DNA from: an uncultured Candidatus Berkelbacteria bacterium
GTDB lineage: Bacteria; Patescibacteriota; UBA1384; XYA2-FULL-43-10; CAINNR01
Length of the DNA: 40,858 nt
Direction: 5' to 3'
Assembly (NCBI GenBank): GCA_903851235.1
Contig: CAINNR010000027.1
Span: 1-40,858, forward strand
Under the pieces are notes generated by a model that saw nothing but the letters and a program-made list of their open reading frames with translations, ran no database searches and was not told the DNA's origin. The position numbers and the translations under genes are program-made. Numbering within the stretch: the stretch's first letter is position 1; each line of letters starts with the position of its first letter. Shown in pieces: positions 23,387 to 23,684 of the stretch.

Positions 23387-23684
23387 TGGTGCCGATGGCC
23401 AGAATCGAACTGGCGACACGAGGATTTTCCTCTGGTTGGACTATCTCATCACCCTGCCATTGTCAAATGTCGTGGGGTGCCGGGCGCTAATGCAGGATTA
23501 TCGTTGGGGCTCACCTGCTAGTCTCTACACCTTATCGCAAACTTTTAACCCTTGCGATCTTGGCTCGGGATTGTCTTTTAATCTCTCAAAAGAGTTTCCC
23601 CGAATTCACCCGGTTTTTAATCGTTGATTACTCAACGATGGACCGAAAATTCAGTCCACTGCTCTACCACTGAGCTACATCGGC
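23387..23684 (-). tRNA. tRNA-Phe (anticodon GAA) interrupted by a group I intron
   Basis: The 5' exon is 23653-23684 and the 3' exon 23387-23429 (with CCA). Joined, they give acceptor GCCGATG/CATCGGC, D-arm AGCTCAGTGGTAGAGC, anticodon stem GTGGA/TCCTC with loop CTGAAAA (anticodon GAA), and T-arm GCCAGTTCGATTCTGGC. The interruption falls in the anticodon loop between positions 33 and 34. One U-U mismatch lies in the anticodon stem. tRNA-Cys lies upstream and may share its promoter. Confidence 0.92.
23430..23652 (-). ncRNA. group I self-splicing intron in tRNA-Phe
   Basis: The 223-nt insert has the marks of a small group I intron. The exon end GGACT pairs with the internal guide GGTCC, with the expected U-G pair at the 5' splice site (P1). 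TTTTC just before the guide pairs with the 3' exon GAAAA (P10). P2 is ATCGTTGA-gtaa-TCAACGAT. Core strings AATCCCGAGCCAAG and GGTGTAGAGACTA resemble cyanobacterial tRNA-Leu introns, and GATAGTCC completes P7. The intron ends in G. It encodes no protein. The subgroup (IC3-like) is my inference. Confidence 0.9.

Follow-up and report, generated by a model that had tools for sequence, protein, structure and literature searches.

A putative IC3-like group I intron with an additional hairpin in the only tRNA-Phe gene found in a Berkelbacteria draft genome

In the genome of an uncultured Candidatus Berkelbacteria bacterium (GCA_903851235.1), the gene for tRNA-Phe(GAA) is located in a 40,858-nt stretch of contig CAINNR010000027.1, referred to here as the window, and is split by 223 nt. 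An earlier interpretation made from the letters alone (the sequence-only reading) had placed the gene at 23387-23684 and the split between positions 33 and 34. These limits proved to be exact and the intron sits between U33 and G34; the strand, left unstated there, is minus. The acceptor, D and T arms, described as perfect, form complete stems of 7, 4 and 5 bp, respectively. The anticodon stem forms four of its five pairs and has a U28-U42 mismatch that the earlier description had omitted. With default settings, ARAGORN called no tRNA at this position, and when introns were allowed, the gene was miscalled as tRNA-Ile(GAU).

The insertion had been proposed to be a group I intron, and the Rfam search bore this out, because RF00028 matched over its full length (1-253) with 67.8 bits (E=3e-15; gathering score, 50). 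A covariance model of the tRNA-Phe intron, R1, gave 233 bits. The pairings proposed at the splice sites were also recovered, namely P1 between exon GGACU and intron GGUCC, with a U-G at the splice site, and P10 between intron UUUUC and exon GAAAA, as was the terminal G of the intron. The longest ATG frame within the intron has 45 codons, in agreement with the claim that it contains no ORF. A P3/P7 pseudoknotted core with P4-P6 and P8 is present (Table 1). All 76 tRNA-Phe relatives that were parsed have the U-G in P1 at the 5′ splice site and the terminal G; at the P9 position, 40 of the 76 form a hairpin of 4 bp or more, which is absent from the window copy.

Table 1. Positions in the window of the split tRNA-Phe gene, its exons and the elements of its intron.
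Feature	Position	Strand	Sequence or supporting evidence
tRNA-Phe gene, whole	23684-23387	minus	GCCGATG TA GCTC AGTGGTA GAGC A GTGGA CT / 223 nt / GAAAA TCCTC GTGTC GCCAG TTCGATT CTGGC CATCGGC A CCA
5′ exon, nt 1-33, ending in ...GUGGACU	23653..23684	minus	Matches the 5′ half of G002 and G006 tRNA-Phe (both intronless) at 100%
3′ exon, nt 34-76, opening with the anticodon GAA; CCA encoded	23387..23429	minus	Matches the 3′ half of G002 and G006 tRNA-Phe (both intronless) at 100%
Group I intron, 223 nt, at U33/G34; terminal G at 23430	23430..23652	minus	RF00028; R1, 233 bits; covariation
Internal guide, UUUUC (P10, with exon GAAAA) then GGUCC (P1, with exon GGACU)	23640..23649	minus	Guide-exon pairing in 75 introns
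P2 hairpin, GUAA tetraloop	23621..23638	minus	Double changes in 7/7 pairs
P3, strands 23613-23609 and 23484-23480; encloses P4, P5, P6, the 5′ strand of P7 and hairpin X	23480..23613	minus	100% paired; double changes in two pairs
P7, G-binding helix, GACUA (23523-23519) and UAGUC (23443-23439)	23439..23523	minus	98.7% of cells paired; nearly invariant
Hairpin X, GCAGG...CCUGC, at the P7.1 position	23492..23518	minus	100% paired; double changes in 4/5 pairs
P8 hairpin	23450..23479	minus	Double changes in 3/5 pairs
Short 3′ tail without P9 hairpin	23430..23438	minus	P7 and the splice site are 9 nt apart

The structure, comprising P1, P2, P3, P4, P5, P6, P6a, P7, P8, P10 and an extra helix (hairpin X), was scored on an alignment of fifteen tRNA-Phe introns from relatives. 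Strong covariation was observed in P1, P2, P3, P5, P6a, P8, P10 and the extra helix. Paired cells amounted to 94.9%, compared with 80.0% in shuffles, and double changes were seen in 140 cells, compared with 46.6 in shuffles (0 of 500 as high); these counts overstate independence because the shuffles ignore relatedness, yet many pairs change at once. When the structure was slid by one base, pairing fell to about half or less. Pairing between the internal guide and the exons was then scored in 75 distinct introns, where P1 pairs were formed in 353 of 375 cases (shuffled mean, 280; maximum, 305) and P10 pairs in 362 of 375 (shuffled, 344; maximum, 352), counts to which the same reservation about relatedness applies. 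Nucleotide 37 of the tRNA and its guide partner were G-C in 39 introns and A-U in 35, with one exception; nucleotide 31 and its partner were C-G in 40 and A-U in 35, and nucleotide 30 and its partner were G-C in 45 and C-G in 30. Thus, the guide tracks each half of the anticodon loop region, and the anticodon itself is read by it.

Hairpin X, approximately 27 nt long, follows the 5′ strand of P7 and precedes the 3′ strand of P3. Its loop, GUGAGYCCCAACRAUAAU, is almost invariant, and the spacing from P7 to P3 was 30-31 nt in 70 of the 74 tRNA-Phe introns measured. IA introns (T4, Twort and other phages) share an extra stem at this place, where their P7.1/P7.2 lie. By analogy with P7.1/P7.2, which have been described in the P7-P3 region of IA introns (PMC1995217, PMC3984707), hairpin X is likely to stabilise the region that binds G. 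The window intron differs from IA introns in having a single hairpin and a tRNA host, and R1 scored at most 28.6 bits on phage introns (28.6 bits on an Enterococcus phage intron and at most 19.3 bits on a T4 stretch). Given these low scores, an assignment to IA2 on the basis of the extra stem is unsupported.

R1 scored 61.0 bits on an alphaproteobacterial tRNA intron from Tritonibacter mobilis (L192), which we take to be IC3 from its likeness to the Azoarcus intron. The window intron shares an anticodon-loop site, small size and lack of an ORF with L192 and with IC3 tRNA introns, such as those of cyanobacterial tRNA-Leu(UAA), Azoarcus tRNA-Ile(CAU) and Agrobacterium tRNA-Arg(CCU), and the P3-P4-P6-P7 core strings AAUUCGGGGAAAC, AAUCCCGAGC and GUGUAGAGAC are also the same. 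It differs from the IC3 tRNA introns in its host, tRNA-Phe, in its site, 33/34, and in that the window copy has no P9 hairpin, and from L192 in the presence of hairpin X, which L192 does not have. IC3 introns are recognized by their core sequence and by the lack of an additional stem in the P7-P3 interval. The core of the window intron agrees with IC3 by the R1 scores on L192 and on phage introns, whereas hairpin X is present and covaries. For this reason we call the intron IC3-like and not plain IC3; as judged from these sequence comparisons, its core most resembles those of alphaproteobacterial tRNA introns.

At least 116 of 380 genomes drawn from the Patescibacteria phylum match R1, a number that includes other tRNA introns. 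A pattern scan for P7 plus hairpin X across approximately 85,000 species, which covers only introns bearing hairpin X, returned 76 stretches, nearly all of them Patescibacteria/CPR by name or labelled just ‘bacterium’. Two in this set come from MAGs named Methylomirabilota (L165 and L174), whose tRNA-Phe intron would reflect either lateral transfer or misbinning. When the host tRNAs of the scan set and of further loci were assigned with a strict cloverleaf parser, 76 were tRNA-Phe(GAA), all with the intron at 33/34, and the remainder were mostly tRNA-Asn(GUU) with the intron at 35/36. The nearest named relative, a Berkelbacteria sequence from Lake Pavin (L172), equals the congeneric genome G001 in the score and length of its R1 match. 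Searches of plasmids for a close copy of the intron and of viral contigs for the exact core pattern found none, and phages gave only weak 43-nt matches; at L195, a group I intron that lies beside nrd genes in an Enterococcus phage is 84% alike over 43 nt around P3-P5. In the Berkelbacteria genome studied here, the 16S and 23S rRNA are also interrupted by group I introns (L047, L046 and L045 on contigs C29, C11 and C8). On visual inspection, the broken frames in the 16S intron region look like a LAGLIDADG enzyme; the 96-aa frame has no Pfam hit.

The assembly (1.04 Mb, 39 contigs, 98% complete) yielded 48 tRNA matches, including intact tRNAs for all other amino acids. The sequence-only reading had named a second, uninterrupted tRNA-Phe as the finding that would mark the split copy as dead, but no second GAA anticodon was found among the 48 matches in the whole 98%-complete assembly, and the joined 75-nt tRNA, used as a query against it, gave full identity at the two exons only. 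The split gene is the only tRNA-Phe found in this draft, in which a second copy could sit in the missing 2%. Phenylalanine codons therefore depend on splicing, unless a second gene is located there. With respect to the remaining tRNA set, tRNA-Gly(UCC) was not seen among the tRNA matches and may be split too or outside the assembly, and a weak tRNA match (32 bits) at L044:393-466 on contig C29 is perhaps a tRNA remnant.

Genome G002, of the same family, carries an uninterrupted tRNA-Phe in which 75 of 75 bases are identical to the joined exons. The gene order is that of the window, with tRNA-Cys (100% identical) upstream and secG and an SBP_bac_5 gene downstream of tRNA-Phe; this locus is an orthologous, natural empty site. 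The tRNA-Phe of G006, of the same order, is identical and also uninterrupted. The U33-G34 join is therefore seen in nature. The intron is present in the tRNA-Phe of G001 and of G003, which belongs to the same family. The mismatch in the anticodon stem could suggest that the split gene is dead and that another tRNA substitutes for it, but no other tRNA-Phe was found in the assembly, the guide covaries with the exons, and the identical U28-U42 occurs in G002 and G006, whose tRNA-Phe has no intron. The mismatch is accordingly a lineage trait and not a sign of decay, and we regard a dead copy as highly improbable. Because intronless relatives have it too, the idea that the intron favoured U28 for a longer P1 is also rejected. 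That the split gene is an artefact or chimera of what is a draft metagenome assembly has a negligible probability, because G001 and G003 have the same gene, intron and neighbours and the intron recurs in dozens of independent assemblies.

The intron is thus very probably a functional group I ribozyme that has an IC3-like core, lacks an ORF and interrupts the only tRNA-Phe found, and it is predicted to splice. The precursor would be transcribed with the intron in place, and the guide would form P1 with the last nucleotides of the 5′ exon and P10 with the anticodon, which opens the 3′ exon. A guanosine bound at P7 would attack after U33, and the freed U33 would then attack after the terminal G, joining U33 to G34 and giving the anticodon loop CUGAAAA. 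These steps follow established group I chemistry, and the anatomy needed by each is present and conserved. Splicing in the cell probably proceeds without any protein, since the core helices are all present and covary and the related tRNA introns of Azoarcus and Anabaena are self-splicing. The window copy has no P9 hairpin and might need extra stabilisation, and group I introns assisted by proteins such as CYT-18 are known (PMC3984707); even so, dependence on a host protein, for example a splicing factor of the synthetase or RNA-chaperone type, appears unlikely.

Group I introns were also observed at 35/36 of tRNA-Asn(GUU) in many Patescibacteria (L120, L155, L171, L178, L180, L197, L198, L203, L210 and others). 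Their core is as in the tRNA-Phe intron, and hairpin X is present in L120, L155, L171, L178 and L180. They differ in the host tRNA, in a site shifted by 2 nt and in that several carry an HNH-like, endonuclease-like ORF (E=4.8e-4, which falls slightly short of the Pfam cut-off); P9 is present in those inspected, in contrast to the window intron. Genome G034 has both tRNA-Asn and tRNA-Phe introns. Single parses gave candidate introns at 35/36 of tRNA-Asp(GUC) (L216) and in CAU-anticodon tRNAs (L175, L229 and L230). In a FastTree tree that included the hairpin X columns, all tRNA-Phe introns fell inside the tRNA-Asn introns, next to those bearing hairpin X; this nesting was not recovered in a poorly resolved IQ-TREE tree built without the hairpin X and guide columns. 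Movement of the intron from tRNA-Asn to tRNA-Phe is plausible, and the tRNA-Phe introns may have arisen once. A fuller history can be offered only tentatively: a Patescibacteria-specific lineage of tRNA introns, with an IC3-like core and a P7.1-like hairpin, may have moved from tRNA-Asn 35/36, where endonuclease-bearing forms occur, to tRNA-Phe 33/34, and may then have lost P9 in some lines, with hairpin X bracing the G-binding site instead.

Bacterial tRNA group I introns have been found mainly in tRNA-Leu, fMet, Ile and Arg (PMC4033280, PMC8450103). The suggestion that a tRNA-Phe host is unusual holds against these classical hosts, but not within Patescibacteria, dozens of which share this intron and its site. 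For CPR genomes, PMC8172020 mentions tRNA group I introns, and a passage of PMC12641178 refers to a preprint from 2025 about a novel insertion site in tRNAs of Patescibacteria; as far as that passage goes, the tRNA-Phe host and the 33/34 site may therefore have been described already. The newness lies mainly in the combination of an IC3-like core with the extra hairpin. Because annotation tools miss or misname such split genes, tRNA-Phe would seem to be absent from many Patescibacteria genomes. As a whole, this intron family, together with intronless orthologues as natural controls and endonuclease-bearing kin, makes it possible to test within one phylum how tRNA introns are gained, lost and moved between hosts.
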